NCBI RefSeq assembly: GCF_030123105.1
Contig: NZ_CP126095.1
Span: 1,488,001 to 1,552,000, forward strand
Length of the DNA: 64,000 nucleotides
From: Paenibacillus sp. G2S3
GTDB lineage: Bacteria > Bacillota > Bacilli > Paenibacillales > Paenibacillaceae
Direction: 5' to 3'
Of the stretch, positions 29,679 through 53,905 are shown in pieces. Within the stretch, counting starts at the first letter, position 1. Every line of letters begins with the position of its first letter. The translations under genes and the position numbers were made by a program. The notes under the pieces are model-generated. The model saw only the letters and a program-made list of their open reading frames with translations, made no database searches and was not told the origin of the DNA.

Positions 29679-31256
29679 ATGGCGGAGAAACCTGTAATAG
29701 GCACCAAAACAATGGTCGTCAGTCCTCATTATTTAGCTTCGATTGCAGGTGCACGCATTTTGGAAAAAGGGGGGAATGCCTTTGATGCGGCAGTGGCGGT
29801 CAGTGCTACGCTCGCTGTTGTCTACCCGCATATGACGGGGCTGGGTGGGGATTCGTTTTGGTTGACCTATAGCGCGCAAGAGGCGCGTGTCCGGGCGTAT
29901 AACGGAAGCGGACGATCGGGTTATGGAGTTCGCAGGAGTTGCTTTGGTGGAGAGGGAGCTATCCCGAGGCGAGGTATCCGTAGCGCCATCACTGTGCCGG
30001 GGATGGTGGATAGCTGGGATGCCATGCTGAGCACGTATGGCCGCTTATCGCTGGCGGAGGTGCTAGAACCAGCCATCGGCTACGCCCAAGGAGGGTTTCC
30101 GCTGTCGCCGGACCAGCGGAATAATACGCTGCTTGCAGGAGCGGCGTTGTCGGCGGAGGCTTCGGCGATTTATATGCCAGGTGGAGTGGCTATGTCTGCT
30201 GGATCGAGATTTCAGCAGACACAACTTGCGACAACCCTGAGGACGTTGGCAGCGGGTGGGCGGGACGCTTTTTACAAGGGGAAGATTGCAGAAGATATCT
30301 GTGTGTATATGCTGGCAGCTGGGGGTTATCTCACACGGGATGACTTTGCGGATCATCAGGGGGATTGGGTGGAGCCAATTCATACGCAATATCACGGGCG
30401 TACGGTGTATCAAGTTCCTCCAAATTCACAAGGATTTACAGGACTGATGAGTCTTAATATATTGGAGCATTTTAATTTCGGAGAAATTGAGCATGGCTCT
30501 TATGAATATTATCACCTGCTTGTTGAGGCGCTGAAGCTGAGCTTTCGCGATCGGGATAAGGTGCTTACAGATCCGGTTTTTAGTGCTATTCCTTTGGTGC
30601 AGTTGCTGGATAAGAACTATGCAGGGCAACTAGCCCCTACGATCTCGATGCAAAAAGCGGCACAGCTGACAAGTCAGCCTATCGGCAGTGATACTGCATA
30701 TGCTGCGGTTGTGGATGAGGAGGGGAATTCGGTCTCCTTTATTCAGAGTCTATATTTTGAGTTTGGATCAGGTGTGGTGGCTGGGAATACAGGAATTCTG
30801 CTGCAGAATCGGGGTTCATTTTTCTCGCTGGACCCTGGGCATGTTAATACGCTTGAGCCACATAAGCGCAGCTTTCACACGCTGATGCCAGCGATGGCCT
30901 GCCGTGAGGGAAAACCTGCGATTTTGTACGGTACGCAAGGTGGTGAAGGTCAAGCGCAGACCCAAACGCTACTTCTTACAAGGATGCTGCATTATGGAAT
31001 GAACCCGCAAATGGCTGTAAGTAAGCCGCGATTTGTGTGGGGAAGAACGTGGGGGGAGCCTACGCAGGAGTTAAAGGTGGAAGGTAGGGTAGCGGATGAG
31101 GTGCTGGTAGGTCTGTCAGGAGCCGGTCATTCTGTGCGAAAAGTTGACGCTTATGACGGCATCGTGGGTCATGCCCACGTGATTTCCATAGATGACAATG
31201 GGTATCGTAGTGGAGGGACGGATCCGCGCTGCGATGGCGCGGCGATTGGTTGGTAG
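29679..31256 (+). CDS. Gamma-glutamyltransferase-family Ntn hydrolase, candidate oxamate amidohydrolase (HpxW-like)
   Basis: This 525-residue protein belongs to the GGT family of self-processing Ntn hydrolases: PHMTGLGGDSFWL, VPPNSQGFTGL, and nucleophile Thr339 in IGSDTAYAAVVDEEGNSVSF, followed by GSGVVAGNTGILLQNRG. It has no signal peptide, unlike secreted GGT, so it acts in the cytosol. Klebsiella HpxW, a GGT-family oxamate amidohydrolase in uric acid degradation, is also cytosolic and about this long. With the amidase gene downstream and purine genes around it, hydrolysis of oxamate to oxalate and ammonia is a reasonable inference, not proof. ATG 29679 follows GGGAGATGGGG; an ATG 9 nt earlier is possible. 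Confidence 0.85.
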   Translation: MAEKPVIGTKTMVVSPHYLASIAGARILEKGGNAFDAAVAVSATLAVVYPHMTGLGGDSFWLTYSAQEARVRAYNGSGRSGYGVRRSCFGGEGAIPRRGIRSAITVPGMVDSWDAMLSTYGRLSLAEVLEPAIGYAQGGFPLSPDQRNNTLLAGAALSAEASAIYMPGGVAMSAGSRFQQTQLATTLRTLAAGGRDAFYKGKIAEDICVYMLAAGGYLTRDDFADHQGDWVEPIHTQYHGRTVYQVPPNSQGFTGLMSLNILEHFNFGEIEHGSYEYYHLLVEALKLSFRDRDKVLTDPVFSAIPLVQLLDKNYAGQLAPTISMQKAAQLTSQPIGSDTAYAAVVDEEGNSVSFIQSLYFEFGSGVVAGNTGILLQNRGSFFSLDPGHVNTLEPHKRSFHTLMPAMACREGKPAILYGTQGGEGQAQTQTLLLTRMLHYGMNPQMAVSKPRFVWGRTWGEPTQELKVEGRVADEVLVGLSGAGHSVRKVDAYDGIVGHAHVISIDDNGYRSGGTDPRCDGAAIGW

Positions 31257-31304
31257 GGTGAGATGAGAGTAGGAAGAATTTGGGTCGGAGGTAGGTTGCA
31301 GGCA

Positions 31305-31338
31305 ACACCTTGAAGTGCAAGGCTTCTTAGAAAGGTGT
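31305..31338 (+). repeat. Hairpin between the GGT-family gene and the amidase gene
   Basis: ACACCTT pairs with AAGGTGT and encloses GAAG/CTTC. There is no T-run, so it is not a standard terminator. It may be an mRNA processing or stabilising structure within an operon. Confidence 0.35.
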
Positions 31339-31446
31339 AACAGAAAGCCCTAGTTTATTGGACATGAGATTTTAGAAGGATGATTAGAATCTTAGACGAG
31401 TTGATTAAGATCTTAGAAGGGATGTTGAGGGGAGGAGGAAGGGGAT

Positions 31447-32700
31447 ATGGTGGATAATCGGTATGGTGCATTTATCGATCCTCAGCTAACAGTCGGATGT
31501 TTAGGGAACGGGATATTGGACGGACTGACCTTTGCGGTGAAAGATGTGTATGCGGTAGCAGGGCACAGTTCTTCTGCTGGTAATCCAGATTGGCTGCGGA
31601 GCCACAATCCGTCTAAAGAACATGCGGCAGTAGTACGTCAGTTGCTCCAATCGGGAGCGACGCTTCGAGGAGCGACTCATACGGATGAGCTGATGTACAG
31701 TCTGGGTGGTGAGAATCATCATTATGGGACGCCGATAAATCCCCGTGCCACAGGCTGTATCCCAGGCGGTTCTTCTAGTGGATCGGCAGTAGCGGTAGCT
31801 TCTGGTAGTGTTGATTTTGCGCTCGGAACAGATACGGGTGGTTCTATTCGAGTCCCTTCAGCTTATTGTGGAGTATATGGCTTTCGGCCAACGCATGGTG
31901 CTGTGGATATGGAAGGTGTGATTCCATTGTCGCCGCAATTTGATGCGGTAGGCTGGATAGCGGATCGTATGGATGTGCTCCAGAAGGTTGGGGAGGTTTT
32001 GCTTGGGTTTGGGCGCATGGATGAAAAAGTAACGATGAGCATAGATGGGAATTTAGAATTGAGGGATAATTTACAAAAGAACATAGTAGATCCTATACAA
32101 AAGAACATGGGAACTTTATTTGTTGCTACGGACTGTTGGGATTTAGTGGCTCCCAAGGATGTAAGTATTCTAGTGGACGGATTGAATCGCTTGCGGACTG
32201 GTGCTGATCATTTCCTCAAAAGTGAAATAGCTCGAGAAGGGTTAAAAGTCTGGATGGATGTCTTTCGAGTGCTACAAGGCAATGAGATCTGGACAACCCA
32301 TAGCGCCTGGATTGAGAAGGTAAAGCCAGTTTTTGGGCCTGATATTGCAGCCCGGTTCTCTTGGGCTGCCAGCTTAGCGGGCAAGGACCATAGTATCGCT
32401 CAGAATAAGGGAAAGGAGATTTCTACCCAGTTGTGCCAGCTGCTGGGAGAAGATAATTGTCTTGTGATTCCGACAGTACCTGGTTCTGCACCGCTGCGTG
32501 GTGGGGATTTACGTCAATTGGAGGAGAACCGTAGTGGGGCGATGATGTTGAGCTGTATAGCAGGACTGGCTGGCCTACCTCAAGTAACATTACCTATGCT
32601 CTCTACAAATGGACTGCCGCTGGGATTGTCCGTTATCGCCGGATATGGTCAGGATCTTCGGTTGCTCTCATGGGTGAAGGAGATTTGGCGGCGACCTTGA
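31447..32700 (+). CDS. Amidase-signature-family hydrolase, candidate oxalurate amidohydrolase
   Basis: This 417-residue Ser-cisSer-Lys amidase has the catalytic Lys in LTFAVKDVYAVAG, the cis-Ser in CIPGGSSSGSAVAVA and the nucleophile Ser in GTDTGGSIRVPSAYCG. GGAGGAAGGGG precedes ATG 31447. Its closest functional setting is the Klebsiella HpxY / AtzE-type amidase next to the GGT-family HpxW, so oxalurate hydrolysis is a reasoned guess. The small partner subunit (HpxX/AtzG) that AtzE-like enzymes need was not found beside it. It could be a different amidase acting on another ureide. Confidence 0.88.
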   Translation: MVDNRYGAFIDPQLTVGCLGNGILDGLTFAVKDVYAVAGHSSSAGNPDWLRSHNPSKEHAAVVRQLLQSGATLRGATHTDELMYSLGGENHHYGTPINPRATGCIPGGSSSGSAVAVASGSVDFALGTDTGGSIRVPSAYCGVYGFRPTHGAVDMEGVIPLSPQFDAVGWIADRMDVLQKVGEVLLGFGRMDEKVTMSIDGNLELRDNLQKNIVDPIQKNMGTLFVATDCWDLVAPKDVSILVDGLNRLRTGADHFLKSEIAREGLKVWMDVFRVLQGNEIWTTHSAWIEKVKPVFGPDIAARFSWAASLAGKDHSIAQNKGKEISTQLCQLLGEDNCLVIPTVPGSAPLRGGDLRQLEENRSGAMMLSCIAGLAGLPQVTLPMLSTNGLPLGLSVIAGYGQDLRLLSWVKEIWRRP

Positions 32701-32862
32701 GGTGATGATTCTTGAGATGATCGATGAAATTGGTTTTAAAAAAATGATCTGAACGTGGCGAAGTAGGTTCAATAATGATGTCTTAGAGTAAAAAGATAAA
32801 TTCAGCGCTCAAATGTTGGTATAAGACCAGTGGTTCAATAAACACCTCCATGTGAAGAAAAA

Positions 32863-33082: not shown

Positions 33083-33132
33083 CCACACCACTAAGGTTAG
33101 CCGCGACACGCTCACATTTTATCTGAACATGC

Positions 33133-33163
33133 AAACAAAGCACCTTCCACAAAGAAGGTGCCC
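33133..33163 (-). terminator. Terminator of ridA
   Basis: GCACCTTC and GAAGGTGC form an 8-bp stem with a 6-nt loop; on the minus strand it is followed by TTTGTTTG. Confidence 0.7.
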
Positions 33164-33179
33164 ATGCCCCGTTCAAGAT

Positions 33180-33563
33180 CTATTCTACGAATGCTTCGAC
33201 TTCTATTTCTACTAACAATAGTGGATCAATGAGTGCTTTTACCTCTACCATGGTTGCTACAGGCTGAATATCTTTGAAGAATTCACCGTGTGCTTTGCCG
33301 ACTTCTTCCCAACGGGAAATGTCTGTCACGAACATTCTTGTTCTAATTACATGTGACAAATCAGCATCTAGCTGGTTTAGCGCTTTTTCGATGGTATGTA
33401 GGATGAATTTCGTCTGCGCGTATGGATCACCTACACCGACTACTTCCCCGTCTTGCATGGCTGTTGTTCCTGCGACTTCGATACGATTGCCGATTCGAAT
33501 GGCGCGAGAATATCCAACTACCGACTCCCACGGTGAACCTGTAAACACTTGTTTTTTACTCAA
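33180..33563 (-). CDS. ridA: RidA-family protein (YjgF/YER057c/UK114)
   Basis: This 127-residue trimeric protein likely hydrolyses reactive enamine/imine intermediates. The family Arg is in VIRTRMFVTDISRWEEVG and the conserved C-terminal Glu in VEIEVEAFVE. The start is TTG at 33563 with GGAGGGG upstream. It is transcribed away from pucR across a shared intergenic region with two palindromes, which puts it in the purine regulon. It may protect against unstable intermediates of ureidoglycine or aminotransferase chemistry. Confidence 0.92.
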   Translation of the reverse strand: MSKKQVFTGSPWESVVGYSRAIRIGNRIEVAGTTAMQDGEVVGVGDPYAQTKFILHTIEKALNQLDADLSHVIRTRMFVTDISRWEEVGKAHGEFFKDIQPVATMVEVKALIDPLLLVEIEVEAFVE

Positions 33564-33665: not shown

Positions 33666-33684
33666 ATGTTATATTAACTAACAT
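33666..33684. promoter_or_regulatory. Palindrome ATGTTA-N7-TAACAT, copy 1 (ridA side)
   Basis: ATGTTA at 33666-33671 and TAACAT at 33679-33684 enclose 7 nt. The same arms and spacing recur at 33737-33759. This is a candidate operator for PucR in the ridA/pucR divergent promoter region, where no typical B. subtilis PucR box is visible. Confidence 0.5.
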
Positions 33685-33734: not shown

Positions 33735-33761
33735 TATAATGTTACATAAAATAACATTATA
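33735..33761. promoter_or_regulatory. Palindrome ATGTTA-N7-TAACAT, copy 2 (pucR side)
   Basis: TATAATGTTA (33735-33744) and TAACATTATA (33752-33761) form a perfect 10-bp inverted repeat around CATAAAA, about 40 bp upstream of the pucR start codon. Its arms contain the same ATGTTA/TAACAT pair and spacing as copy 1, which suggests one DNA-binding protein. Confidence 0.5.
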
Positions 33762-33801: not shown

Positions 33802-35376
33802 ATGCATCTTACGGTTGAAGAAGCGTTGTCCATTTATCCTTTGTCCGAGGCGAAGCTTATCGCGGGGTCCAAGGGGAAACATCGAATTGTGAAATCGATT
33901 AATGTGATGGACGCACCTGATATTTCGGATTGGATCAAAGAAGGCGAGATGCTGCTAACGACAGCCTATTTAATCAAGGACAATCTGGAGGATGCCTCTG
34001 CTTTGCTGCAGACACTGAATCGTAGGGGATCATCGGCCTTGGGCATTAAGCTGGGAAGATTTTGGGATGAAGTACCGGAGCAGCTAATCGCAGAAGCGGA
34101 GAGTCTTAATTTCCCATTAATCCAGTTGCCGTTCCAGTTCACTTTTTCGGATCAGATGAATGGCCTGTTTCGCGCCGAGCTTAGCCGGAGTACGAATGTC
34201 TTGCAGAACATAATGGAGAAGCAGAAAAAGCTGATGCAATTCGCCTTGCGATCAGTCCGCAGCCGTCCATTGTTTGACTCGGTGTCTGAAGTGATTGGCC
34301 ATTCACTTGTGGTGGTTAGCGCACGCGGGGATGTAATCTACAACAATTCTGATTATCAGACCTCACAGCTGCTGGAGGGGTGGCCTTGGCAGAAACGGAA
34401 TCAACGTTTTCGTATAGAAGATCGTATGGGTTATCGCACACCACTAATGCAAGGAGAAAAGTGCTCAGGATTTTTATTGTATTGTTCCATCGACCCTTTA
34501 TTGCTCCCGGTGGAAGAGAGCTTGTTCGTTCAGGGCGCTGAACTTATTTCATATCATATTCATTCAGGATACGAGGATTATTTTGAACAGGCAGAACATA
34601 GAGAGTTCAGCGGATTGCTGAGACGTTGTTTGAGTGGTAACTTATCTTACTCCGATTTAGCACAGTCTGCTGTAAAGCTGGAGATAGAGCTGCTTCAATC
34701 CCCATTCTGTCTCTTATTAACCGATATTGCTACGACGAGTGAGGAACGCCAAAGTGAGCTGCTTAGATTAAAAGAAGAATACACTGAACATCCCGTACTG
34801 CGGGAATTAAAGGCCATTCATATGATTGTAGATCAAGGATTATTGTCCATTTATCCGGCAGATCGTCAGAGTCCCGAGCAATTTCGGGCTCTAATTCAGG
34901 CTTGTTTTGACAACCTGAAGTTTAACAAGGGAGATTATCCGCGAGCAGCGATAAGTAGTTGTAAAGTGAAGCCGGAGGGAGTGAAGGAGGCTTTTGCGGA
35001 GGTAAAGGAATGTATGGGAATGCTTCAGCTTGAGGGAGTGCATGGGAATGTTGTGCATTACCGGCAGCTTGAGCTTTCCTTGCTTCTTGGGCAAATCCCG
35101 ACAGAGGTCATGGAGAAATATTGCAACGGAACGCTTAGAGGGCTGCTTAGCCGTGAGCCGGAGTATGTACGAGAAATGCTACGGACGCTGGAGGTTTATC
35201 TAGAGAACGATGGGCATGTCAATGAGACAGCCAAAAAGCTGTTTATTCATCGGAACACGGCTACCTACCGGATCGAGAAGCTTAGTGAGCTCTTGGATGT
35301 CGATTTTAAAAAAATAAATGATCTAATGAGGCTGAAGCTAGTGTTCATGTTTCGGAGAATGCTTGGGCGGGACTAA
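33802..35376 (+). CDS. pucR: PucR-family transcriptional regulator of purine catabolism
   Basis: This 524-residue regulator has the N-terminal PucR domain (LTVEEALSIYPLSEAKLIAG and DWIKEGEMLLTTAYLI) and, after a GGDEF-like central region, the C-terminal HTH_30 with YLENDGHVNETAKKLFIHRN and TATYRIEKLSELL. In B. subtilis PucR activates purine degradation genes under nitrogen limitation with allantoin-type effectors. AAGGAGGG precedes ATG 33802. It stands first before the pucA-like to pucG-like genes and diverges from ridA, so control of this whole cluster is expected. Confidence 0.92.
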   Translation: MHLTVEEALSIYPLSEAKLIAGSKGKHRIVKSINVMDAPDISDWIKEGEMLLTTAYLIKDNLEDASALLQTLNRRGSSALGIKLGRFWDEVPEQLIAEAESLNFPLIQLPFQFTFSDQMNGLFRAELSRSTNVLQNIMEKQKKLMQFALRSVRSRPLFDSVSEVIGHSLVVVSARGDVIYNNSDYQTSQLLEGWPWQKRNQRFRIEDRMGYRTPLMQGEKCSGFLLYCSIDPLLLPVEESLFVQGAELISYHIHSGYEDYFEQAEHREFSGLLRRCLSGNLSYSDLAQSAVKLEIELLQSPFCLLLTDIATTSEERQSELLRLKEEYTEHPVLRELKAIHMIVDQGLLSIYPADRQSPEQFRALIQACFDNLKFNKGDYPRAAISSCKVKPEGVKEAFAEVKECMGMLQLEGVHGNVVHYRQLELSLLLGQIPTEVMEKYCNGTLRGLLSREPEYVREMLRTLEVYLENDGHVNETAKKLFIHRNTATYRIEKLSELLDVDFKKINDLMRLKLVFMFRRMLGRD

Positions 35377-35414
35377 GGTCTGGGTTGAAATGCAAACACG
35401 GAGGAGGGAGCCTC

Positions 35415-36539
35415 GTGAATACACATGAGATCGCAATGCATATTCAAACCCATAAGGCGCCTGCGGTGCTGGCAACACTGATTGAGGTGGAGGGGCATTC
35501 GTATCGTAAACCCGGAGCGGTGATGCTCTTTTTTGAAGAGGGCACGATTGGGAGTCTGAGTCCAGGATGTCTGGAAAGCGATCTGCAGCTACGTACCTCT
35601 GAGATATGGGAACGAGGGCTACCCGAAATTGTGGAATACAATATGTTGTCTCCGGATGATCTGTCCTGGGGTGAGACTGTCGGCTGCGGGGGCAAGATCA
35701 AAGTGGTGCTTGAACCTGTGCAGGGGAAGTTAAATGAGCTTTTGGTGCAGGTGAGTGACAGACTGGCGGCGGGAGAACGGTTGGTTCTGTTTCGGGAGGT
35801 AGTGGAGAGGGGGTTTACCTATAAGCTGGAGCAGGATATTGATACTTCACTATCGCAGAACAAGCAACAACCGAAATTATCCCACTCGGCAAAAGAAAGC
35901 ATGGCGGCAGGTCGCTTTATGGCCGCTCCAGCTGAATTGACAGCATTTCATACGTCTTTTGTGCCCAAACCGCGGCTTGTGATTTTTGGTGGAGGACGTG
36001 ATGTGGTTCCGATTGCAGAGCTTGCTAACAAAGTTGGCTTTCGGATTGTGGTAGCCGATTGGCGCGAAGGGAGTTTGCAAAATGAGTTTCCTCGCGCTGA
36101 ACGAATCATTTGTTCTTCTACGGAGGTTGTTCAACGTGTGGGTGTAGCTCAGCGGGATTATGTGCTGATTTGTAGTCATCAACTTGGGCGGGATAGACAG
36201 TTCCTGGAGAGTGTAATTCCGCTAGCTCCGCTATACATCGGGGTTATTGGTTCAAAAGCGCGGATAGCTCTTTTACTGGAAGGGCTTGAAGCTCCTCCCT
36301 CTTTACATGCACCTGTAGGACTGCCCATTGGTGGAGAAGGTCCCGAGGAAATTGCGGTCAGTATTATAGCAGAAATTATTCAAATTAGAAGGGCGGGCTT
36401 ACGAGAGCTGCCTAAAGGAGTGGATAGTATTGAAGGTAGCAGGAATATATTTGGCAGCAGGGCAGAGCAGGCGGATGGGCGTGGCCAAGGTTTCGCTGAA
36501 ATTATCACAGGAGGTCTCGCTCGGGAGCGTCGCGCTTAG
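35415..36539 (+). CDS. pucA: XdhC/CoxI-family protein, xanthine dehydrogenase maturation (PucA-like)
   Basis: This 374-residue protein should insert sulfurated molybdenum cofactor into xanthine dehydrogenase. The N-terminal XdhC part has SYRKPGAVM and IGSLSPGCLESDLQ, where the usual GGCLE is PGCLE. The C-terminal Rossmann part has RLVIFGGGRDVVPIAELANKVGF and VIGSKARIALLLEGL. GTG 35415 is chosen because GGAGGAGGG lies just upstream, 38 nt after pucR. The last about 36 residues overlap the next gene by 110 nt and look like a poorly conserved tail. Confidence 0.9.
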   Translation: MNTHEIAMHIQTHKAPAVLATLIEVEGHSYRKPGAVMLFFEEGTIGSLSPGCLESDLQLRTSEIWERGLPEIVEYNMLSPDDLSWGETVGCGGKIKVVLEPVQGKLNELLVQVSDRLAAGERLVLFREVVERGFTYKLEQDIDTSLSQNKQQPKLSHSAKESMAAGRFMAAPAELTAFHTSFVPKPRLVIFGGGRDVVPIAELANKVGFRIVVADWREGSLQNEFPRAERIICSSTEVVQRVGVAQRDYVLICSHQLGRDRQFLESVIPLAPLYIGVIGSKARIALLLEGLEAPPSLHAPVGLPIGGEGPEEIAVSIIAEIIQIRRAGLRELPKGVDSIEGSRNIFGSRAEQADGRGQGFAEIITGGLARERRA

Positions 36540-37053
36540 TGAATTGGATCGCTGTAATCTTGAACCGCTTATCGTAGTGGTGCGTGCGGATGACAACTTG
36601 GAATGGCTGCCACCCGCGATTGCGCCGCAAGGGACTAGACGTACCGAAACCTGCTTAACCGCACATTTGGGATTATCTTTTTCCCTTCGCTGCGGACTTA
36701 ATGCTGTGCTGCCTTTGCAGCCGGATGCTGTAGTTGTGGCACTCGCGGATCAGCCTTTTATTACTACGGCATTAGTGAATCGTCTAATACAAACGTTTGA
36801 ACAATCACCGGAGATGGATTATGTGGCTAGTGTCAGCAACGGATCGGCTATGCCGCCGGCTTTGTTTTCGAAGACATTGTTTCCAGCACTACAGGGATTG
36901 GATGGGGATCGCGGAGCGGCAGCGATTTTGCGTTCACCTGATTATAAGGGGATTGTTCTGGAGTCTGAATCCGCCCACTATTTCATGGATGCAGATACAG
37001 AGGAGGATTTCGGGGAGATTCAGGAACAATGGATGCTGAGAAACGGAAAATAG
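36430..37053 (+). CDS. pucB: MobA-like molybdenum cofactor cytidylyltransferase (PucB-like)
   Basis: This 207-residue nucleotidyltransferase would convert Mo-molybdopterin to the dinucleotide form used by xanthine dehydrogenase. The signature IYLAAGQSRRMGVAKVSL is present, with the metal Asp in VVALADQPFITTALV and a C-terminal DADTEEDFGEI. The start is TTG 36430, with AAAGGAG 9 nt upstream, inside the xdhC-like gene. The 110-nt overlap in another frame is unusual. It acts with the XdhC-like protein on xanthine dehydrogenase assembly. Confidence 0.9.
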   Translation: MKVAGIYLAAGQSRRMGVAKVSLKLSQEVSLGSVALSELDRCNLEPLIVVVRADDNLEWLPPAIAPQGTRRTETCLTAHLGLSFSLRCGLNAVLPLQPDAVVVALADQPFITTALVNRLIQTFEQSPEMDYVASVSNGSAMPPALFSKTLFPALQGLDGDRGAAAILRSPDYKGIVLESESAHYFMDADTEEDFGEIQEQWMLRNGK

Positions 37054-37293
37054 AAATGTAATCGAGAAAGTAATCCCCCAAAAGTATTCCTTTTCCACAT
37101 TGAGTCATATAATGTGACATACAATAACCTCTTCCAAATACAATTTAGTGCATATCACACAAAAAAAGCTCTGATTCTTATCATCAAACACAAACGTATG
37201 TTATATAAATTTACGCAAAGGCCGCCTCTAAGTATAGTAGAAGTACATTTATGGTTGCAGCCATGATGAGAGATGATTTGGAGGAGGAGAATT
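37054..37293. promoter_or_regulatory. Leader region of the importer/xanthine dehydrogenase transcript
   Basis: A 240-bp AT-rich gap precedes the BMP lipoprotein gene and probably holds a promoter. A half-site ATGTTA at 37198-37203 is followed 7 nt later by TTACGC, a poor second arm compared with the ridA/pucR palindromes. No purine riboswitch core is seen. Confidence 0.3.
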
Positions 37294-38454: not shown

Positions 38455-38563
38455 TGCGTAACCGTACTAAATAAAATGTGCAGGATCTATGGGTGGGGCG
38501 GATTCCATGAAGCGGAAACTACCCCACCCGTACTACAACTTGAAGGAAGGAGGGGCATAGGCC

Positions 38564-41235: not shown

Positions 41236-41238
41236 CCG

Positions 41239-43114: not shown

Positions 43115-43148
43115 GAGGTGAGAGATTCCACGAAAGGAGCGAGGGAAA

Positions 43149-45984: not shown

Positions 45985-46492
45985 ATACAGGTATACGCTG
46001 GAAGAGATAAATGCCATGAGTATAACGGATTTTGTGAAGCATCTAGGCGGCATTTTTGAACATTCACCGTGGGTGGCAGAGGAGGCTTATAAGCAGATCC
46101 CGTTCCATTCTATAGAGCATTTGCATAGCACCATGATGCAAACCGTTCTGAGTGCTGATCGGAGCCGAATGGAGGGACTATTAAAAGCTCACCCAGATTT
46201 AGCGACTAGGCTGCAAGTTACGCCTTTGTCAGCATCAGAGCAGCAGGGAGCTGGTCTGGATCGGCTAACAACGGAAGAGTTTACTCTCCTGAGTGATCTG
46301 AATAGAAAATATACAGACAAATTTCAGTTCCCTTTTATTCTAGCAGTTCGTGGCAAAAACAAAGATGACATTATCAACGCCATTGAAGCGCGGGTAGAAC
46401 GATCCCCTCAGGAGGAATGGGTGCAAGCTTTTTTTGAGATCGGCCTTATTACGAAATTCCGCCTAAGCGATTTAATCATTCATTCATCATAA
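45971..46492 (+). CDS. uraD: OHCU decarboxylase (separate from uricase)
   Basis: This 173-residue enzyme decarboxylates 2-oxo-4-hydroxy-4-carboxy-5-ureidoimidazoline to (S)-allantoin. Family landmarks are FVKHLGGIFEHSPWVAEEAY, the catalytic His region HSIEHLHSTMMQTV, a GAGLDRLTTEEFTLLSDLN segment and KFQFPFILAVRGKNKDDI. In B. subtilis this is the N-terminal half of PucL fused to uricase; here it is a separate gene. ATG 45971 follows AGGAGGT and overlaps the pucE stop region. Confidence 0.92.
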   Translation: MVVSEYRYTLEEINAMSITDFVKHLGGIFEHSPWVAEEAYKQIPFHSIEHLHSTMMQTVLSADRSRMEGLLKAHPDLATRLQVTPLSASEQQGAGLDRLTTEEFTLLSDLNRKYTDKFQFPFILAVRGKNKDDIINAIEARVERSPQEEWVQAFFEIGLITKFRLSDLIIHSS

Positions 46493-46510
46493 TCGGGGAG
46501 GGTGTCAGCC

Positions 46511-47461
46511 ATGCTGGAACCAATTAACGGACGTACTATGTTTTATGGAAAAAGCGATGTTCTAACCTATCGTACCTATGCAAAGCCGCTGGCCGTTACC
46601 CCCGTTCCCGAATCTTCATTTACGGGCTGTGACAACATTATATTCGCGCATAATATTACATTTGCCGTTACGGGCGAAGCCTTTCTTCCTTCTTTTTCAG
46701 AGGGGGATAATTCAATGGTGGTAGCTACTGATTCTATGAAAAATTTCATTCTGCGCAATACCGCCGACTACACGGGCAGCACAACGGAAGGATTACTGCA
46801 GCTTCTGAGCAGCCGTTTTATCGATAGATACAGTCATGTCACCGCGGTTTCCGTTTCCGCAGACCGTTTGCCTTTTGAACAGGTAATGGTGCCTGGGGGC
46901 GAGGGGCTTAGGCAGAGTCATTTAGTGCTGCGTCACTCCAATAATGAATCCTATTCGGCTTCGCTGACAGTAAAACGTGGGGAAAATGGGACTGAGGTTG
47001 TCGCTCATGAATGCCGGTTGAAGGATTTACAGCTGATTAAAGTGAGCGGGAGCTCGTTTTATGGATTTATCCGAGATGAATATACGACATTGCCAGAAAG
47101 CTTTGACCGTCCGCTTTATATTTTTCTGAATATTAACTGGACCTACGATGATGTGGAGCATGCTTTGGATGGAGATCAGGGTCAATATGTGGCTGCGGAG
47201 CAGATTCGTGATATCGCCCATAGCGCTTTTCATGAGCTCAATAGCCCTTCGATTCAATCGTTGATTTATCAAATTGGACTACGCGTGTTGTCCCGTTTCC
47301 CTCAATTGTCTACCGTTTCGTTTGAGTCTAATAACCGGACTTGGGAAACGATTGTTGAGCCTGAAGAAACCAAGGGCGGCGTGTTCACCGAACCTCGTCC
47401 GCCTTATGGCTTTCAGGGATTTTCTGTTAGCCGTGCAGATCTGGCTGGAGAAACAGCTTAA
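46511..47461 (+). CDS. uox: Urate oxidase (uricase)
   Basis: This 316-residue cofactor-free enzyme oxidises urate to 5-hydroxyisourate. The catalytic Lys is likely in MFYGKSDVLTYRTY, and the Thr-Asp of the active site in MVVATDSMKNFILRNT. A GSTTEGLLQLLSSRFIDRY segment and the C-terminal duplicated T-fold follow. GGGGAGG lies 9 nt before ATG 46511, 18 nt after the OHCU decarboxylase gene. The stop codon shares its last base with the start of the HIU hydrolase gene. Confidence 0.93.
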   Translation: MLEPINGRTMFYGKSDVLTYRTYAKPLAVTPVPESSFTGCDNIIFAHNITFAVTGEAFLPSFSEGDNSMVVATDSMKNFILRNTADYTGSTTEGLLQLLSSRFIDRYSHVTAVSVSADRLPFEQVMVPGGEGLRQSHLVLRHSNNESYSASLTVKRGENGTEVVAHECRLKDLQLIKVSGSSFYGFIRDEYTTLPESFDRPLYIFLNINWTYDDVEHALDGDQGQYVAAEQIRDIAHSAFHELNSPSIQSLIYQIGLRVLSRFPQLSTVSFESNNRTWETIVEPEETKGGVFTEPRPPYGFQGFSVSRADLAGETA

Positions 47462-47865
47462 TGAGCGGGCGTCTTACCACCCATGTGCTGGATCTGTCGC
47501 GGGGCATTCCTGCTGCAGGACTGACACTACAGCTCTGGAAGCTTACGGAGGGAGTGAGCAAGCTCCTGTGTGAAGTAGTCACGAACAGTGACGGGAGGCT
47601 GGATGCTCCGCTGCTGGAGGGGAGCGAGCTGGAGGCTGGCTGCTATGAGCTGTTGTTTATGGTCGGCGATTATTATCGTAGAGCTGATGCCGAGGAGTCG
47701 GCTGTTGGCATAGGAGTACCTGAAAGCTCAGTAGACGCTAAACGTGAGACGTCTTTTTTTCTAGAACAAATCCCCATTCGCTTTCAGATAGGAAGCTCTA
47801 TAGACCACTACCATGTACCTTTGTTAGTAGCTCCTGGTGGGTACAGCACGTATCGAGGAAGTTAG
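47461..47865 (+). CDS. pucM: 5-Hydroxyisourate hydrolase (transthyretin-like, PucM-like)
   Basis: This 134-residue tetrameric enzyme opens the 5-hydroxyisourate ring to OHCU. Family motifs are the N-terminal LTTHVLDLSRGIPAAGL with catalytic His, the Arg in QIPIRFQIGSS, and the C-terminal HYHVPLLVAPGGYSTYRGS, which ends in the diagnostic YRGS. Its ATG overlaps the uricase stop (TAATG), a tight translational coupling. It lies directly after uricase, the enzyme whose unstable product it uses. Confidence 0.95.
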   Translation: MSGRLTTHVLDLSRGIPAAGLTLQLWKLTEGVSKLLCEVVTNSDGRLDAPLLEGSELEAGCYELLFMVGDYYRRADAEESAVGIGVPESSVDAKRETSFFLEQIPIRFQIGSSIDHYHVPLLVAPGGYSTYRGS

Positions 47866-47898: not shown

Positions 47899-49293
47899 AT
47901 GAAGGAGCCCTATGAACTTGTGATTAAGAATGGTAATGTAGTGCTGCCTGATCAGGTGCTTAAGCTGGATATTGCTGTTTCAGAGGGAAAGATCGTCGCA
48001 TTGGGCGAGGAGCTTTCGGCTGCACCACTGACCCAAGTCATCGACGCAGATGGGCTCTATGTCCTCCCCGGTATGATTGATATGCATGTGCACTTTAATG
48101 AGCCAGCGCTGGGACATTGGGAAGGCTTTCGCAGCGGTTCTGCGGCGTTGGCAGCTGGAGGCTGCACAACCTATGCAGATATGCCGCTTAACGGCAATCC
48201 ACCTACGGTGAACGAGGCTGCACTCCAGCAAAAGCTAAATGCTGCGGCTGGCAATTCCGTGGTTGATTATGTGCTGTGGGGGGGTCTCGTTCCGGGAAAT
48301 CTGGACGATTTGGAAGCATTGGCAGCTGCTGGCGTCACTGGATTTAAAGCCTTTCTCTCCAATCCCGGAGGGGAAGGCGAAGGTAGATTCCGCGAAGTGG
48401 ATGAGGATACGCTCTTTCAAGGGATGCAGCGAATTGCTGCTTTGGGCGGAATTCTCGCCCTTCATGCCGAAAGTGAGGCCATCACGGCAGTGTTGACCGC
48501 CGATGCCGTGCGAAATGGCAGAAGCAGTGCCTGTGATTTTGCGGCTTGCCGCCCTGCTGAGGCAGAGCTGGAGGCAGTCAGCAGGGCGCTGCTGTACAGC
48601 GAACGGACTGGATGTCGGCTGCATTTTGTCCATATCAGCACAGCCACCGCCATTGAGAAAATCTATGAAGCCAAGCTTCGAGGGCTGGACGTCTCGGCTG
48701 AAACCTGTCCACATTATCTGGTGCTCACAGAAAGGGAGATGGAGGATCTAGGTCCTGTGGCGAAGTGTGCGCCTCCGCTGCGGAGTGAGCTGGAGCAGGA
48801 GAAGTTATGGGAGATGCTTGCCCAAGGCAAAATCGACCTGATCGCTTCAGATCATTCTCCGTGTCCGACGGAATTGAAGATGCGACCGGAGTTGTCTTTT
48901 TTTGAGGCTTGGGGTGGGATCTCAGGTGCGCAAAGCAGCCTGGAGCTTATGTTCCATGAAGGTGTGAATGTCCGCGGCTTGCCGATTACCTTAATCTCTC
49001 GCCTGCTTGCCGGGCAACCCGCAAAACGTTTTGGGCTGGATCATCTTAAAGGCGCTATAGCGCTAGGGCTGGATGCCGATCTAGTTCTGTTGAATCCAAA
49101 CGCGACCTACACGCTAAATGCTGAGGATTTGTTATATCGCCACAAGCACAGCCCTTACATCGGAAAAACTCTATCCTGCAAGGTAGCTGCGACGATATGC
49201 CGTGGACGGGTGGTCTATACCTCTGATGCAGGAGTGATTGCCGAGGAAGGTGGACAGTGGCTGCGGATTAGGAAGGAGCAGTATAGCCTATGA
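47899..49293 (+). CDS. pucH: Allantoinase (PucH-like)
   Basis: This 464-residue zinc amidohydrolase converts allantoin to allantoate. The metal-binding HxH is in DMHVHFNEPALGHWEGF, the carboxylated Lys in AAAGVTGFKAFLSN, further His in LHAESEA and FVHISTA, and the catalytic Asp in IASDHSPCP. ATG 47899 is preceded by CGGAGGAGG. It overlaps the next gene by ATGA. Confidence 0.94.
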   Translation: MKEPYELVIKNGNVVLPDQVLKLDIAVSEGKIVALGEELSAAPLTQVIDADGLYVLPGMIDMHVHFNEPALGHWEGFRSGSAALAAGGCTTYADMPLNGNPPTVNEAALQQKLNAAAGNSVVDYVLWGGLVPGNLDDLEALAAAGVTGFKAFLSNPGGEGEGRFREVDEDTLFQGMQRIAALGGILALHAESEAITAVLTADAVRNGRSSACDFAACRPAEAELEAVSRALLYSERTGCRLHFVHISTATAIEKIYEAKLRGLDVSAETCPHYLVLTEREMEDLGPVAKCAPPLRSELEQEKLWEMLAQGKIDLIASDHSPCPTELKMRPELSFFEAWGGISGAQSSLELMFHEGVNVRGLPITLISRLLAGQPAKRFGLDHLKGAIALGLDADLVLLNPNATYTLNAEDLLYRHKHSPYIGKTLSCKVAATICRGRVVYTSDAGVIAEEGGQWLRIRKEQYSL

Positions 49294-50549
49294 ACGATTC
49301 CAGAGTCCAAGCATCGACCCAGAAGCTGCTCGAGCTGCTTGAGGAGCTGGCGGCATATACCGCGCCTGGTCCGGGAGTTACCAGATTGCTATACACGGAG
49401 GAATGGGGACAGGCACAGACTTTTTTGCAGCAAAAAATGGCTGAGTTTGGTTTAAAGGTTACCATCGATAAGGTGGGTAATGTATATGGACGCCTATGTG
49501 GACGCAGTCCGGAGCAAAAGATCATTTTAACCGGATCACATATCGATACCGTGGTTAATGGCGGCAAATATGATGGTGCTTATGGGGTTGCCGCAGCCAT
49601 GCTTGCGCTTCAAGATTTGCAGATGAATTATGGTCAGCCGAAGCGAACGCTTGAGGTCGTATCTTTTTGTGAAGAAGAGGGGAGCCGATTTCCGCTTGCT
49701 TATTGGGGCTCGGGTCATGTTACGGAAAGGTATGACGGAAATGAAGCAGCAGCCTGTAAGGACGCTGATGGAATATCATTACAGGCAGCAATGGCGGAAT
49801 TCAGTTTTTTGCAGGGCACAACGGCTGGGGATGTCTCTAAGATTACAGGAGCCAGAAATGATATCGGCGCTTTTGTAGAGCTGCACATTGAGCAGGGAAT
49901 TATTCTGGAGAAAACAGACACGCAGATAGGCGTAGTTCTGGGGATTGTTGGACAGAGACGTTACATGGTTAAGGTTAGAGGTGTGGCTAATCATGCTGGC
50001 ACAACGCCGATGTTGATGCGGCATGATGCACTGACTAGTGTGGTAGAAATGCTCTATGTACTGGAAGGTGCTGCTAAAGCGGCAGGTGAACCACTTGTGG
50101 CAACCTCAGGGAAGCTTGAGGTGTATCCGAATACGCCAAATGTGATTCCGGGTGAAGTTCTTTTTACATTAGATATCCGGCACAGTGAAGAGGATGAACT
50201 AGAGTGTTTCTGTATGAGGCTTTTTTCGCAATATCATGAAATCGTCGCAAAACGTGGAGTAACCTTGGAGGTTACGCCTGTGCTTCATACACTCCCTGCA
50301 CCTATGGATACTAAGCTCTCTACAGCGCTGGAAAATATCTGCCTAAAACAGGGCAAAACCTACCGTACGATGGTAAGTGGAGCGGGACATGATGCCCAGC
50401 TGTTTGTACCGCGTTGCCCCACTGCGATGATTTTTGTACCCAGTCGTGCGGGTATCAGCCATTCACCGGAAGAGTATACTTCCCCCGAGCAGCTAGCTGC
50501 TGGGCTTGAGGTGCTGACGGCGATGCTATACGAGTTAGCTTATGAATAG
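49290..50549 (+). CDS. pucF: Allantoate amidohydrolase (PucF-like)
   Basis: This 419-residue M20-family enzyme hydrolyses allantoate to ureidoglycine (via ureidoglycine amine) with release of CO2 and ammonia. Metal ligands are seen in GSHIDTVVNGGKYDGAYGV, the EEEGSRFP pair with catalytic Glu, and the later HIEQG and AGHDAQ histidines. The dimerisation domain (about 210-320) has NHAGTTPMLMRHDAL. It is coupled to allantoinase by a 4-nt overlap. A hairpin lies in the 71-nt gap after it. Confidence 0.93.
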   Translation: MNDSRVQASTQKLLELLEELAAYTAPGPGVTRLLYTEEWGQAQTFLQQKMAEFGLKVTIDKVGNVYGRLCGRSPEQKIILTGSHIDTVVNGGKYDGAYGVAAAMLALQDLQMNYGQPKRTLEVVSFCEEEGSRFPLAYWGSGHVTERYDGNEAAACKDADGISLQAAMAEFSFLQGTTAGDVSKITGARNDIGAFVELHIEQGIILEKTDTQIGVVLGIVGQRRYMVKVRGVANHAGTTPMLMRHDALTSVVEMLYVLEGAAKAAGEPLVATSGKLEVYPNTPNVIPGEVLFTLDIRHSEEDELECFCMRLFSQYHEIVAKRGVTLEVTPVLHTLPAPMDTKLSTALENICLKQGKTYRTMVSGAGHDAQLFVPRCPTAMIFVPSRAGISHSPEEYTSPEQLAAGLEVLTAMLYELAYE

Positions 50550-50559
50550 AGAGTTCGCT

Positions 50560-50599: not shown

Positions 50600-50620
50600 T
50601 ACTTGAAGGGAGAGATCATC

Positions 50621-51853
50621 ATGAAGCGTTACGAAGATTTGTCACCGTCCCTGCGCTGCATTATGACTCCGGGTCCGGTGGAGGTTGATCCGCGTGTGCT
50701 GCGGGCGATGTCTTTTCCGGTGCTGGGGCAGTTTGATCCAGAGTTCACCGATATGATGAATGAAACGATGGAGATGCTGCGAGAGCTGTTTGCTACCCGA
50801 AATGCATGGGCTTACCCTATAGATGGGACCTCTCGTGCAGGTATTGAAGCGGTGATGGTCAGCTTGATCCTGCCGGGTGAGCGTGTGCTGATTCCGATCT
50901 TTGGCCGCTTTGGACATCTGCTTCATGAGATTGCTGAGCGCTGTGGCGCTGAGGTATTCGTTCTGGAAAAACCTTGGGGAAGTGTGTTTGAACCGGGGGA
51001 AGTAATAGCGGCTATGGAGACTTTTAAGCCAAATGTGGTGGCGATGGTGCATGGTGAGACCTCTACAGGGCGTGTGCAGCCACTTGCGGAAATTGGCAGA
51101 GCCTGCCGCCAGATGGATGCTCTTTTTATAGTTGATGCAGTTGCAACTCTAGGGGGCATTCCTGTCGAAACGGATGCTTGGATGCTGGATGCGGTCGTAG
51201 GAGGTACACAGAAATGCCTATCCGTACCTTCCGGAATGGCACCGATAACGTATAATGATCGCGCAGAAGCTAAGCTCATGACCCGGAAGCGAGTGGAGCG
51301 TGGGATCAGAACTAGTGATGTTCAGCCTGGTGAATTGTCTTTTGTCCGCAGCAATTATTTCGATCTAGGCATGCTTCAGGATTATTGGAGCCCGCAGCGT
51401 CTTAATCATCATACAGAAATGACCTCTATGCTCTATGCACTGCGGGAAGGCTTGCGGATTGCGCTTGAAGAAGGACTGGATGCCAGATTCGCCAGACATC
51501 TGCTCCATGAAAAAGCACTTATAGCTGGGTTAACAGCGATGGGGCTTGAGCTTTACGGGGAGCCTTCCTGCAAACTTACCGTTGTCACCTGTGTGCTGAT
51601 TCCTGAGGGCATAGACGGGGAGTCCGTACGCACGCTGCTGCTGGAGCGGTTCGGCATTGAAATTGCCAGCTCCTTTGGACCTCTGAAAGGAAAGATCTGG
51701 CGTATTGGCACGATGGGCTTTAGCTGCCGTACGAATAATGTGCTGCGTTTGCTTGGAGCGCTGGAAGCAGCTTTGCTACGAAACGGATTTGGAGTTGCTT
51801 GCGGACTTGGTGTTCAGGCGGCACTTGACGTATATGAGGAAAACGTAAGATAA
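50621..51853 (+). CDS. pucG: (S)-Ureidoglycine-glyoxylate aminotransferase (PucG-like)
   Basis: This 410-residue class V aminotransferase moves the amino group of ureidoglycine to glyoxylate, giving oxalurate and glycine. The PLP Lys is in AVVGGTQKCLSVPSG, and the N-terminal MTPGPVEVDPRVLRAMSF, the NAWAYPIDGTSRAGIEA segment and HHTEMTSMLYAL are typical of PucG. AAGGGAGAG precedes ATG 50621. It ends the main operon, and a strong terminator follows. Confidence 0.92.
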   Translation: MKRYEDLSPSLRCIMTPGPVEVDPRVLRAMSFPVLGQFDPEFTDMMNETMEMLRELFATRNAWAYPIDGTSRAGIEAVMVSLILPGERVLIPIFGRFGHLLHEIAERCGAEVFVLEKPWGSVFEPGEVIAAMETFKPNVVAMVHGETSTGRVQPLAEIGRACRQMDALFIVDAVATLGGIPVETDAWMLDAVVGGTQKCLSVPSGMAPITYNDRAEAKLMTRKRVERGIRTSDVQPGELSFVRSNYFDLGMLQDYWSPQRLNHHTEMTSMLYALREGLRIALEEGLDARFARHLLHEKALIAGLTAMGLELYGEPSCKLTVVTCVLIPEGIDGESVRTLLLERFGIEIASSFGPLKGKIWRIGTMGFSCRTNNVLRLLGALEAALLRNGFGVACGLGVQAALDVYEENVR

Positions 51854-51927
51854 TCGTTGGAATAGATGCTGGCGGGTGAGTTCATACCAGGGGCACGTCC
51901 GGAGTGTTGGACAATCTTTGGATTAAG

Positions 51928-51967
51928 AAAACGGCTATCATCTATAGGGATGACAGAGCCGTTTTTT
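51928..51967 (+). terminator. Terminator of the purine operon
   Basis: AAAACGGCT at 51928-51936 pairs with AGCCGTTTT around an inner TCATC/GATGA stem and is followed by TTTTTT. Confidence 0.88.
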
Positions 51968-52084
51968 CGTACAATATCAGATTTGCCAATCATGATAGCA
52001 ACACAGCCGATGGTTAGGCAATCCTCTATTATTATGAATCTATTCACTACATCAAGAACGCACTTGGATACTAACGGGGGAGAG

Positions 52085-53905
52085 ATGAAGATGACAGCTT
52101 TTACAAGAAAGCCTTTAGCAGATTGTGTACCTGAGCTAGTGGCTACGGCAAGAGGAGATAAACCAGCAACACTGGTAATTACAGGCGGGAAGCTGGTCAA
52201 TGTTTGCTCTGGTGAAATTTTGGAAGGAATGTCTGTTGGTATACAAGGTGGACGTATCGCTTATGTTGGTAAAGATGTGACACATATGATTGGTGAAGGA
52301 ACAGAGGTTATTGAGGCGAACGGCAAGTATATAGCTCCAGGACTACTCGATGGCCATTGTCATATTGAGAGTACACAGCTGACCGTTACTGAATTCTCTC
52401 GTGCGGTTCTGCCGCTAGGCACAACAGGTGGTTTCTTTGATGCCCATGAAATTGCTAATGTATTTGGCCTGAAGGGTATTGGGTTGATGCTGGATGAAAT
52501 GCGGGGTACGCCTTTAGCTGCTTACATGCAGGTAGCTTCTTGTGTACCTGCGGCAGGTGCAGAATTCGAGACAACGGGAGCTTCTATTGGACCAGATGAA
52601 GTGGCAGAAGCCTTTACTTGGGGACCCGATGTGATTGCGCTGGGTGAAGTGATGAACTTTCCTGGCGTTGTTTATGGGGATGAGAAAATGCTGGGGGAAA
52701 TTCAAGCTACGCTGCGGGCAGGCAGATTTGTAGATGGTCATTTCACATGGCCTTCCAGCGACTGGAGACTGCCCGTGTATGCTGCGGCAGGTGTGACTGG
52801 CGATCATGAATGTGTGACGGCAGACGATGTGATTGAGCGCGTTCGACTAGGGATGTATGCCAAAATGCGCCGTGGTTCAGCTTGGCATGATGTAGCTAAA
52901 ACAATTACAGCCCATACAGAACACGGAATTGATACACGCCGAATGATGCTGGTAACGGATGATCGTAGCTCAGAATCCTTGCGAGATGAAGGGCATATGA
53001 ATTTCGTTCTACGCGATGCTATTGCTCAAGGTGTGAAGCCTAAAACGGCTATCCAAATGGCCACCATTAATACTGCTGAACGCTTCGGTCTAGCGCGCGA
53101 TATTGGTTCTATTACTCCGGGTTCTTATGCAGATATCATCCTTCTGGACGGGAATTTGGCAGATATTAATGTAGTGCTGACCATTGCCGCAGGTGTAGTA
53201 GTTGCCGAGAACGGTGTGATGACAGCAGAGCTTGCTAAATTCACTTATCCGGAGGAAGTGTTGGCTTCGGTACACTTGCCACAGCGTCCTACCGCAGAAG
53301 ATTTTATCATCGCTGCGCCAATTGAAGCAGGTGAACTTACTACAAGGGTAATTAAAGTAAGAGAAAATCATGTGGAGACCATTGAGCGTATGGTTTCAAT
53401 ACCTGTAGTTGCGGGGCAGCTGGATGTAAATGCTGTAGAAGGTCTATGCAAAATCGCCGTGCTCGAACGGCATAAAGGTACAGGCAATAAATCCGTGGCC
53501 GTTGTAGAAGGCATTGGATTTAAAGAGCCAGCTGCCATTGCGATGACAGTTGCCCATGATAGCCACAATGTACTGGTCATCGGCAACGATGATGAGTTAA
53601 TGGCTAAAGCTGCAAATGCGGTCGCTGATGCCCAGGGTGGAGTTTGCATGATCACATCCGGTGGAGAAACATTATTCCCGCTGGCCATTGCCGGTCTAAT
53701 GTCCACAGAGCCATTTGAGATTGCTGCGGAGAAATCTGCTGCGATCAGCACAGCGCTATATGATGCCGGTTGTACTTTGAACTATGCATTTATGACTTTA
53801 TCGCTGCTTGCATTGGCGGTTATACCGACGTTACGCATCACAGATAAAGGACTTGTTCGGATCTCGCCTGAAGGCATAAAGTTAGTGCCGCTTTTTGTTA
53901 ACTAA
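52085..53905 (+). CDS. adeC: Adenine deaminase
   Basis: This 606-residue metal-dependent deaminase converts adenine to hypoxanthine, which feeds xanthine dehydrogenase. The amidohydrolase core has LLDGHCHIESTQLTVTEF with the metal HxH, LPLGTTGGFFDAHEIANVFG, GDHECVTADD and DDRSSESLRDEGHM. The C-terminal domain includes the family's conserved SHNVLVIGNDDELMAKAANA. ATG 52085 follows GGGGGAGAG; the open frame extends to 51866 across the preceding terminator, so that longer form is not credible. It has its own transcript after the purine operon terminator. Confidence 0.94.
   Translation: MKMTAFTRKPLADCVPELVATARGDKPATLVITGGKLVNVCSGEILEGMSVGIQGGRIAYVGKDVTHMIGEGTEVIEANGKYIAPGLLDGHCHIESTQLTVTEFSRAVLPLGTTGGFFDAHEIANVFGLKGIGLMLDEMRGTPLAAYMQVASCVPAAGAEFETTGASIGPDEVAEAFTWGPDVIALGEVMNFPGVVYGDEKMLGEIQATLRAGRFVDGHFTWPSSDWRLPVYAAAGVTGDHECVTADDVIERVRLGMYAKMRRGSAWHDVAKTITAHTEHGIDTRRMMLVTDDRSSESLRDEGHMNFVLRDAIAQGVKPKTAIQMATINTAERFGLARDIGSITPGSYADIILLDGNLADINVVLTIAAGVVVAENGVMTAELAKFTYPEEVLASVHLPQRPTAEDFIIAAPIEAGELTTRVIKVRENHVETIERMVSIPVVAGQLDVNAVEGLCKIAVLERHKGTGNKSVAVVEGIGFKEPAAIAMTVAHDSHNVLVIGNDDELMAKAANAVADAQGGVCMITSGGETLFPLAIAGLMSTEPFEIAAEKSAAISTALYDAGCTLNYAFMTLSLLALAVIPTLRITDKGLVRISPEGIKLVPLFVN

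Follow-up and report, generated by a model that had tools for sequence, protein, structure and literature searches.

A purine catabolism island in Paenibacillus sp. G2S3 probably serves as a nitrogen-recovery unit that runs from purines to oxalate, in which an amidase would convert oxalurate to oxamate and an HpxW-like member of the gamma-glutamyltransferase (GGT) family would convert oxamate to oxalate and ammonia. The window is the whole 64,000-nucleotide stretch that we analyzed (G000:C1:1488001-1552000, within a 6.70-Mb one-contig genome), and it carries in one unit all enzymes of the Bacillus subtilis-type puc pathway to oxalurate, from xanthine dehydrogenase to PucG, as well as the two hydrolase genes (Table 1). 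Gene company, a shared operator, and the failure to find urease are consistent with recovery of nitrogen from oxalurate. We rate the two-step reading no higher than probable because the hydrolase pair also occurs outside purine clusters and because both substrates are inferred.

In the proposed route, the puc enzymes would convert purines to ureidoglycine by way of urate and allantoin. PucG, as established for B. subtilis, converts ureidoglycine and glyoxylate to oxalurate and glycine, and where the pathway leads from this oxalurate in Firmicutes is a question discussed by Danchin 2016 (PMC5270733). The amidase would then cut oxalurate on its carbamoyl side to give oxamate, ammonia, and CO2. 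By analogy with HpxW, an autoprocessed N-terminal threonine of the Ntn hydrolase would serve to split oxamate into oxalate and ammonia, with Arg381 as the candidate holder of the oxamate carboxylate. An oxalate decarboxylase encoded elsewhere would remove the oxalate, which might also be exported by a divergent pair of chromate-transporter-family (CHR) proteins. The urease gamma subunit was not found in this genome by a search whose positive control matched in three genomes including B. subtilis, and no urea carboxylase match in it stands above cut-off; a urea-free exit would therefore recover the last two nitrogens. This would explain how a urease-less Paenibacillus could recover all of its purine nitrogen.

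The GGT-like protein and the amidase

The GGT-like protein is the sole PF01019 match found in the genome (480.7 bits). It has 528 residues if read from position 29670 and 525 from 29679, the start with the better-spaced ribosome site as judged by eye; inspection by eye likewise revealed no signal peptide. The nucleophile given in the preliminary description, Thr339, holds for the start at 29679 (Thr342 in the 528-residue open reading frame, ORF) and aligns with residue 1 of the small chain of Klebsiella HpxW (5hft_B). The small-chain half matches 5hft_B over all 187 residues with 173.9 bits; 2nlz reaches 124.9 and the best-scoring classical GGT 70.5, and the large-chain half is equally near 2nlz (180.8) and 5hft_A (176.8).

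A maximum-likelihood tree of 54 rows unites the window protein, Klebsiella HpxW (5hft), and an HpxW encoded on an A. caldus plasmid beside genes for DUF4089, AtzE, and HpxZ (an hpxXYZ cluster) in a clade of 40 rows (100/98). Outside the clade fall 2nlz, 2i3o, and two classical GGTs. Long branches (L138, L136, L110, 2i3o, and 4y23) and rows of odd composition, 5hft among them, were flagged, so placements inside the clade are less sure. The motif GR[TN]WG occurs in 38/40 clade rows and 0/14 others, and Glu or Asp stands at position 364 in 40/40 and 2/14, respectively. Trp461 was rejected as a lone diagnostic residue, since E. coli GGT has Trp in the same alignment column.

In E. coli GGT, we take the gamma-glutamyl pocket to consist of Arg114, Asn411, Gln430, Asp433, Ser462, and Ser463. 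The corresponding residues of the window protein are Ser80, Tyr362, Arg381, Phe384, His403, and Thr404, and HpxW has Ser, Tyr, Arg, Ala, His, and Thr in these columns. An AlphaFold model (26-sequence alignment, pLDDT 84.2, pTM 0.89) matches GGT-family structures and confirms the fold only. Foldseek searches with the model ranked 2nlz first and the 5hft large chains 44th and 45th; because 5hft is deposited as separate halves, this ranking does not bear on membership.

Judged from its sequence, then, the protein is not a true GGT; it has lost the pocket and belongs to the HpxW clade. It did not cluster with true GGTs in the tree, the outcome that the preliminary description had named beforehand as counting against an HpxW-like identity. 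That it is nevertheless a true intracellular gamma-glutamyl hydrolase, set among puc genes by chance, seems very improbable. Such a view could draw on the gamma-glutamyltransferase equivalog model TIGR00066, which the protein passes (515.8 against a cut-off of 357.85), and on public annotation of its relatives as ggt. It conflicts with the tree position, with the lost pocket, and with Minami 2004, whose title reports that B. subtilis YwrD is unimportant for glutathione use. Proteins annotated as "ggt" thus need not be gamma-glutamyltransferases.

The amidase matches the amidase-signature family (199.3 bits), passes the PRK08310 model (445.6 bits, cut-off 391), and has the triad Lys32-Ser109-Ser133. 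It falls far under the cut-off of the AtzE model TIGR02715 (187 bits against 425.75) and is 31% identical to the plasmid HpxY over 389 columns. The HpxY-like amidase of the preliminary description therefore survives as a proposed function only and not as a family assignment. Its sequence presumably resembles plant AMI1-type amidases.

Among the closest known arrangements is Klebsiella hpxWXYZ, which shares a GGT-family Ntn hydrolase of the same clade, a link to purine catabolism, and an amidase-signature partner. The window differs in its amidase family, its Firmicute puc operon, its CHR pair, and the fact that neither hpxX nor hpxZ was seen: no hpxZ is among the annotated window genes, and a search for hpxX (AtzG, PF13318) was empty, as was its positive control, with ORFs below 90 residues listed only for 31200-34000. 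E. coli oxamic transcarbamylase, AllFGH, also consumes oxalurate and yields oxamate (PMC11326118); unlike the proposed amidase step, it makes carbamoyl phosphate and is encoded by different genes (allFGH).

A shared palindrome and GlnR boxes

Palindrome counts in near relatives refer to 20 of 80 named loci (L139-L157 and L162), and to fewer where a gene fell outside the locus. Among the named loci analyzed, the closest is that of Paenibacillus sp. VTT E-133291, whose GGT-like protein is 93% identical to that of the window. In 20/20 of these loci, the region upstream of the GGT-like gene holds a palindrome, TTTGTG-N7-CACAAA, with at most one mismatch (0.1% of shuffles). Upstream of the transporter operon it is found with at most two mismatches in 15/17, mostly at -128 (1.1% of shuffles). 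It was found upstream of pucR in 0/17 and directly upstream of the amidase in 0/19.

A refined pattern, TTNGTGCAN5CACAAA, has exactly two exact matches in the 6.7-Mb genome, both in this island. Allowing one mismatch gives 11 rows genome-wide, one place being counted on both strands, compared with 1 for the backwards control; of three non-exact matches examined, two lie inside ORFs (L226 and L223) and one between ORFs (L228). Within the window's genus, the palindrome thus connects the GGT-like gene with the purine operon, and it is probably an operator for PucR.

Nitrogen control would act one level higher, with PucR serving the operator common to the GGT-like gene and the purine transporter operon and GlnR acting above it, through pucR. 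Upstream of pucR, ATGTTA-N7-TAACAT occurs with at most one mismatch in 17/17 relatives, and in P. polymyxa WLY78 the promoter of pucR is a published binding site of GlnR (PMC9948412). A GlnR/TnrA box in the GGT-like promoter was rejected as a link between that gene and puc, the narrower ATGTTA-N7-TAACAT being present there at two or fewer mismatches in 1/20 relatives.

Gene company and urease across genomes

We surveyed 148 genomes of the family and placed and compared four proteins in them: GGT-A (62 to 100% identity to the window protein, including one 303-residue match in G088), GGT-B (50 to 54%), the amidase, and PucG. Genomes were classed as A or B by identity to the window protein and not by a tree of the whole set; ten GGT-family matches of 44 to 50%, and those listed under about 44%, were put in neither class, and Fisher P values for co-occurrence are not corrected for kinship. 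GGT-A occurs in 58 genomes and the amidase in 72; both are present in 56, and within 12 kb of each other in 54. PucG is found in 93/148 genomes, including 65 of the 72 with the amidase and 51 of the 58 with GGT-A. The amidase or GGT-B is present in 90 of these 93, and 7 genomes with either one have no PucG. All 37 GGT-B genomes have PucG, within 5 kb in 29; in 27/37 the two genes are at most 1,636 bases apart start to start, or about one gene length.

The candidate genes for an exit from oxalurate are also associated with urease. Among PucG genomes, urease is present in 24/24 with GGT-B and neither amidase nor GGT-A, in 0/8 with the amidase and neither GGT class, and in 21/45 with GGT-A and the amidase. 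The amidase is found in 29/31 PucG genomes that lack both urease and urea carboxylase and in 36/62 that have one of them. Urea carboxylase was counted only in the 46 genomes where TIGR02712 scores above cut-off; the model matches all 148, and the 102 matches below cut-off were taken as biotin carboxylase. In our reading, the urease link favors a role of the amidase that avoids urea, and it also gives rise to an alternative.

One possibility, which we hold only tentatively, is that oxalurate has two exits split by urease. GGT-B, encoded just behind PucG, would hydrolyze oxalurate directly to oxalate and urea, for urease to finish, and where urease is missing the amidase would make oxamate, with or without GGT-A; the window would then be the urease-free version. 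Besides the urease counts and the closeness of GGT-B to PucG, the aligned rows show Asp at position 364 in GGT-B and Glu in HpxW and the window protein. This Asp is, however, also found in clade members that do not adjoin PucG, and GGT-B itself belongs to the HpxW clade, in which the single enzyme assayed uses oxamate. Urea carboxylase is above cut-off in 3 of the 8 amidase-only genomes (G093, G108, and G124), and the urease pattern reflects few independent events, with urease and gene type covarying by genus.

An amidase cut on the oxalyl side of oxalurate instead, which would release oxalate and urea and leave the HpxW-like enzyme to act on some other amide, is distinctly unlikely. Of the 65 genomes with both amidase and PucG, 9 have the two genes at most 5 kb apart, and 7 of these contain neither GGT-A nor GGT-B, as this view would allow (one, G093, has a 44% identical GGT-family gene outside the HpxW clade). 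The near amidase-PucG loci that were scanned carry a xanthine/uracil-type permease (PF00860), an allantoin/cytosine-type permease (PF02133), and a PucR-family regulator. Yet an oxalyl-side cut would lose the urea nitrogen wherever urease is missing, as it is in 13 of the 14 genomes with PucG in the window's genus, unless urea carboxylase took over, which the window's own genome does not show. It would also leave the constant company of the HpxW-like gene unexplained.

Several observations weigh against the two-step reading. We know of no HpxW-clade member that has been assayed apart from HpxW, and column 384 holds Ala in HpxW and Phe in the window protein. Five of the six pocket changes are common to 2nlz; they rule out a true GGT without singling out HpxW or oxamate specificity. 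By its sequence, the amidase is of a different amidase-signature family from HpxY/AtzE, and a 190-bp gap separates its gene from the GGT-like gene, leaving cotranscription unproven. In 60 more distant named loci, the palindrome was found in none at one or fewer mismatches and in 9 at two or fewer. The link between amidase and urease cannot be separated from genus: g13 alone is informative (2/8 versus 2/2, the same lean), and the link therefore rests on few events. PucG is missing from 7/58 GGT-A genomes, and 7 of the ten unclassed matches of 44 to 50% are in genomes without a PucG match. Finally, there must be a further source of substrate, since several GGT-A/amidase pairs stand in clusters with genes for an ABC transporter, creatininase, isochorismatase, an S15-type hydrolase, an amidohydrolase, and a cupin.

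These last observations agree with a further reading that we regard as possible, if on the doubtful side, namely that the pair works as a broad salvage system for small amides of the oxalyl or a similar kind. Purines would be one source among others; the amidase would take off an amide or carbamoyl group, and the last step would fall to the Ntn hydrolase. Lactate permease and chemoreceptor genes beside other clade members lean the same way, as does similar gene company in ammonia-oxidizing archaea, where biuH, FAH-family, creatininase, and gatA-like amidohydrolase genes are reported together (PMC12625717). Against this reading stand the presence of PucG in most GGT-A genomes and, in the window's genus, the operator that the GGT-like gene has in common with the purine transporter.

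Gene contexts were read at 60 family matches (L085 being without a GGT-like gene), 20 class matches, and 20 amidase/PucG places, and on plasmids at 7 matches out of 270 records. A catabolic cluster that combines parts of the creatininase gene company above with an FAH-family protein, the amidase, and GGT-A recurs in L040, L041, L046, L049, L091, L120, L158, L167, and L204. An FAH-family protein often follows the amidase, and one (PF01557) adjoins it in purine clusters (L050, L071, L112, L118, L121, and others); we know of no role for it in the known purine pathway.

Transport genes, known relatives, and island layout

The CHR pair that diverges from the GGT-like gene (28354-29510) was missing from the preliminary description. 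CHR genes lie at most 6 kb from the GGT-like gene in 54/80 named loci, 38 of which also have an Lrp-type regulator, and a CHR gene stands within four ORFs of 23/67 GGT-family proteins with GR[TN]WG and 3/20 without. The window's own genome has four CHR matches altogether. In L122-L124 the order is CHR-CHR-Lrp-amidase, with no GGT-like gene.

Our guess is that the pair exports oxalate or oxamate, because oxalate is the predicted end product. Oxamate is an isostere of lactate and pyruvate, and an L-lactate permease gene adjoins HpxW-clade genes in four lineages (L070, L109, L132, and L135), which suggests oxamate uptake. The permease stands within four ORFs of 3/67 proteins with GR[TN]WG and 2/20 without (both L109). 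An OFA-family transporter adjoins the HpxW-clade gene of Salinigranum, a locus that also has an amidase, 27% identical to that of the window. The lactate permeases and the OFA-family transporter point the same way as the guess of oxalate or oxamate transport. Chemotaxis receptor genes are found beside HpxW-clade genes in L099, L100, L101, L105, L106, and L107 (Pfam-confirmed for one from each of two clusters). An oxalate decarboxylase gene elsewhere in the genome (G000:C1:5919893-5920987; 582.8 bits, cut-off 254.2) is a likely consumer of the island's predicted oxalate.

A similar setting appears to surround B. subtilis YwrD, encoded with ywrA, ywrB, and ywrC and likewise a GGT-like protein apparently without export, as compared through the gene context of relatives. 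A CHR pair and an Lrp-type regulator stand beside group A genes of Bacillus methanolicus, Anoxybacillus, Priestia, and others; in contrast, no Lrp gene is among the window ORFs between 20001 and 56000. We take the B. subtilis order to be ywrA-B-C-D, with YwrC presumably the regulator ChrS and ywrD adjacent to it, and to our knowledge YwrD has no amidase partner. For ywrB/ywrA with the Lrp-type ChrS, the published CHR role is chromate export (PMC8940164). Danchin 2016 describes YwrD as closely similar to HpxW and as co-evolving with most enzymes of xanthine degradation (PMC5270733).

The preliminary description had judged the route new for a Paenibacillus-type Firmicute. The literature searched yielded no description of this amidase or of the Paenibacillus route; the HpxW-purine link is already in print for B. 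subtilis YwrD (PMC5270733). Open-licence PMC literature gave nothing for chromate transporter with oxalate, for Paenibacillus with allantoin and oxalurate, or for lactate permease with oxamate hydrolase. The HpxW-like step thus belongs to a known idea, and what is new is the non-HpxY amidase, the urease-linked split, the shared operator, and the CHR pair riding with the module. Two genes gain testable substrates, and the YwrD family gains a possible function. If the CHR pair carries oxalate, a chromate-resistance family gains a natural substrate. The broadest combination, in which Paenibacillaceae have two exits chosen by urease, one through an HpxW-clade enzyme behind PucG that yields urea and oxalate and the other through a non-HpxY amidase that yields oxamate for a second HpxW-clade enzyme to finish, and in which YwrA/YwrB-type CHR pairs are exporters of oxalate or oxamate with chromate accidental, strikes us as rather doubtful.

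Table 1. Features of the island, in window coordinates
Feature	Position	Strand	Basis
CHR half-size membrane protein, second of pair	28354..28896	-	PF02417 146.4 bits
CHR half-size membrane protein, first of pair, divergent from GGT-like gene	28893..29510	-	PF02417 140.7 bits
Palindrome TTTGTGCATGGATCACAAA, candidate operator of GGT-like gene, perhaps of CHR pair	29555..29573		conserved upstream of GGT-like gene in near relatives
GlnR/TnrA box TGTNAN7TNACA in GGT-like promoter	29626..29642	+	exact match; apparently not conserved
HpxW-like GGT-family Ntn hydrolase, candidate oxamate amidohydrolase	29670..31256 (or 29679..31256)	+	PF01019, TIGR00066, tree, residues, 5hft, model
Amidase-signature enzyme, PRK08310 family, 417 aa, candidate oxalurate-opening enzyme	31447..32700	+	family models, triad, co-occurrence with PucG and GGT-A
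RidA family	33180..33563	-	PF01042
GlnR/TnrA-type box, distal, upstream of pucR	33667..33683	+	pattern match
GlnR/TnrA-type box, proximal, upstream of pucR	33740..33756	+	pattern match, conserved
PucR-family regulator	33802..35376	+	PF07905, PF13556
XdhC/PucA-like molybdenum-enzyme maturation factor	35385..36539	+	PF13478, PF02625
PucB-like nucleotidyltransferase	36430..37053	+	TIGR03202 169.1 bits, below cut-off 235.05
Palindrome, second copy TTAGTGCATATCACACAAA, upstream of transporter/xanthine dehydrogenase operon	37145..37163		conserved in near relatives
BMP-type ABC transporter: binding protein, ATPase, two permeases	37273..42168	+	PF02608, PF00005, PF02653
Xanthine dehydrogenase PucC, PucD, PucE	42215..45984	+	TIGR03199, TIGR03196, TIGR03198; PucD alone above cut-off
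OHCU decarboxylase	45962..46492	+	TIGR03164 above cut-off
Uricase	46502..47461	+	TIGR03383 above cut-off
Hydroxyisourate hydrolase (HIUase)	47461..47865	+	TIGR02962 above cut-off
Allantoinase PucH	47899..49293	+	TIGR03178 above cut-off
Allantoate deiminase PucF	49290..50549	+	top NCBIfam match NF006768, 521.8 bits against 532
PucG, ureidoglycine-glyoxylate aminotransferase	50603..51853	+	family PF00266 and place
Adenine deaminase family	51866..53905	+	TIGR01178 466.7 bits against 472.5; PF13382

The genes named in the preliminary description (GGT family, amidase, RidA, PucR, and puc enzymes) are all present by profile matches. The CHR pair (minus strand) is followed by the GGT-family gene, the amidase, RidA (minus), pucR, xdhC, pucB, and the BMP-type ABC transporter, and then by pucCDE, OHCU decarboxylase, uricase, HIUase, allantoinase, allantoate deiminase, a class-V aminotransferase in the PucG position, and adenine deaminase. 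None of the NCBIfam matches of the aminotransferase is a PucG model, and its assignment is made from PF00266 and place. For PucB, PucC, PucE, PucF, and adenine deaminase the expected model is on top or nearly so, yet below cut-off. The "whole puc set" first described is complete in its enzymes but not in its permease: no PucI/J/K is among the annotated genes, and the BMP-type ABC transporter, whose substrate is likely a purine/nucleoside or a ureide, stands there instead. Compared with the B. subtilis puc regulon, the island has the same enzymes from xanthine to oxalurate, PucR, and nitrogen control; it differs in this transporter, in encoding uricase and OHCU decarboxylase by separate genes, in the terminal adenine deaminase, and in the added oxalurate exit.

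RidA does follow the amidase, as first described, but not as a member of a same-strand module; a close match was found in only one of the 80 named loci (L139) and in L032 outside the named set, and we therefore place it outside the conserved module. Between the amidase and RidA lies a tandem array (32859-33082) with a 51-base unit in 3.3 copies, also readable as a 102-base unit, and its 16-base core occurs 3 times in the window, each time within the array.

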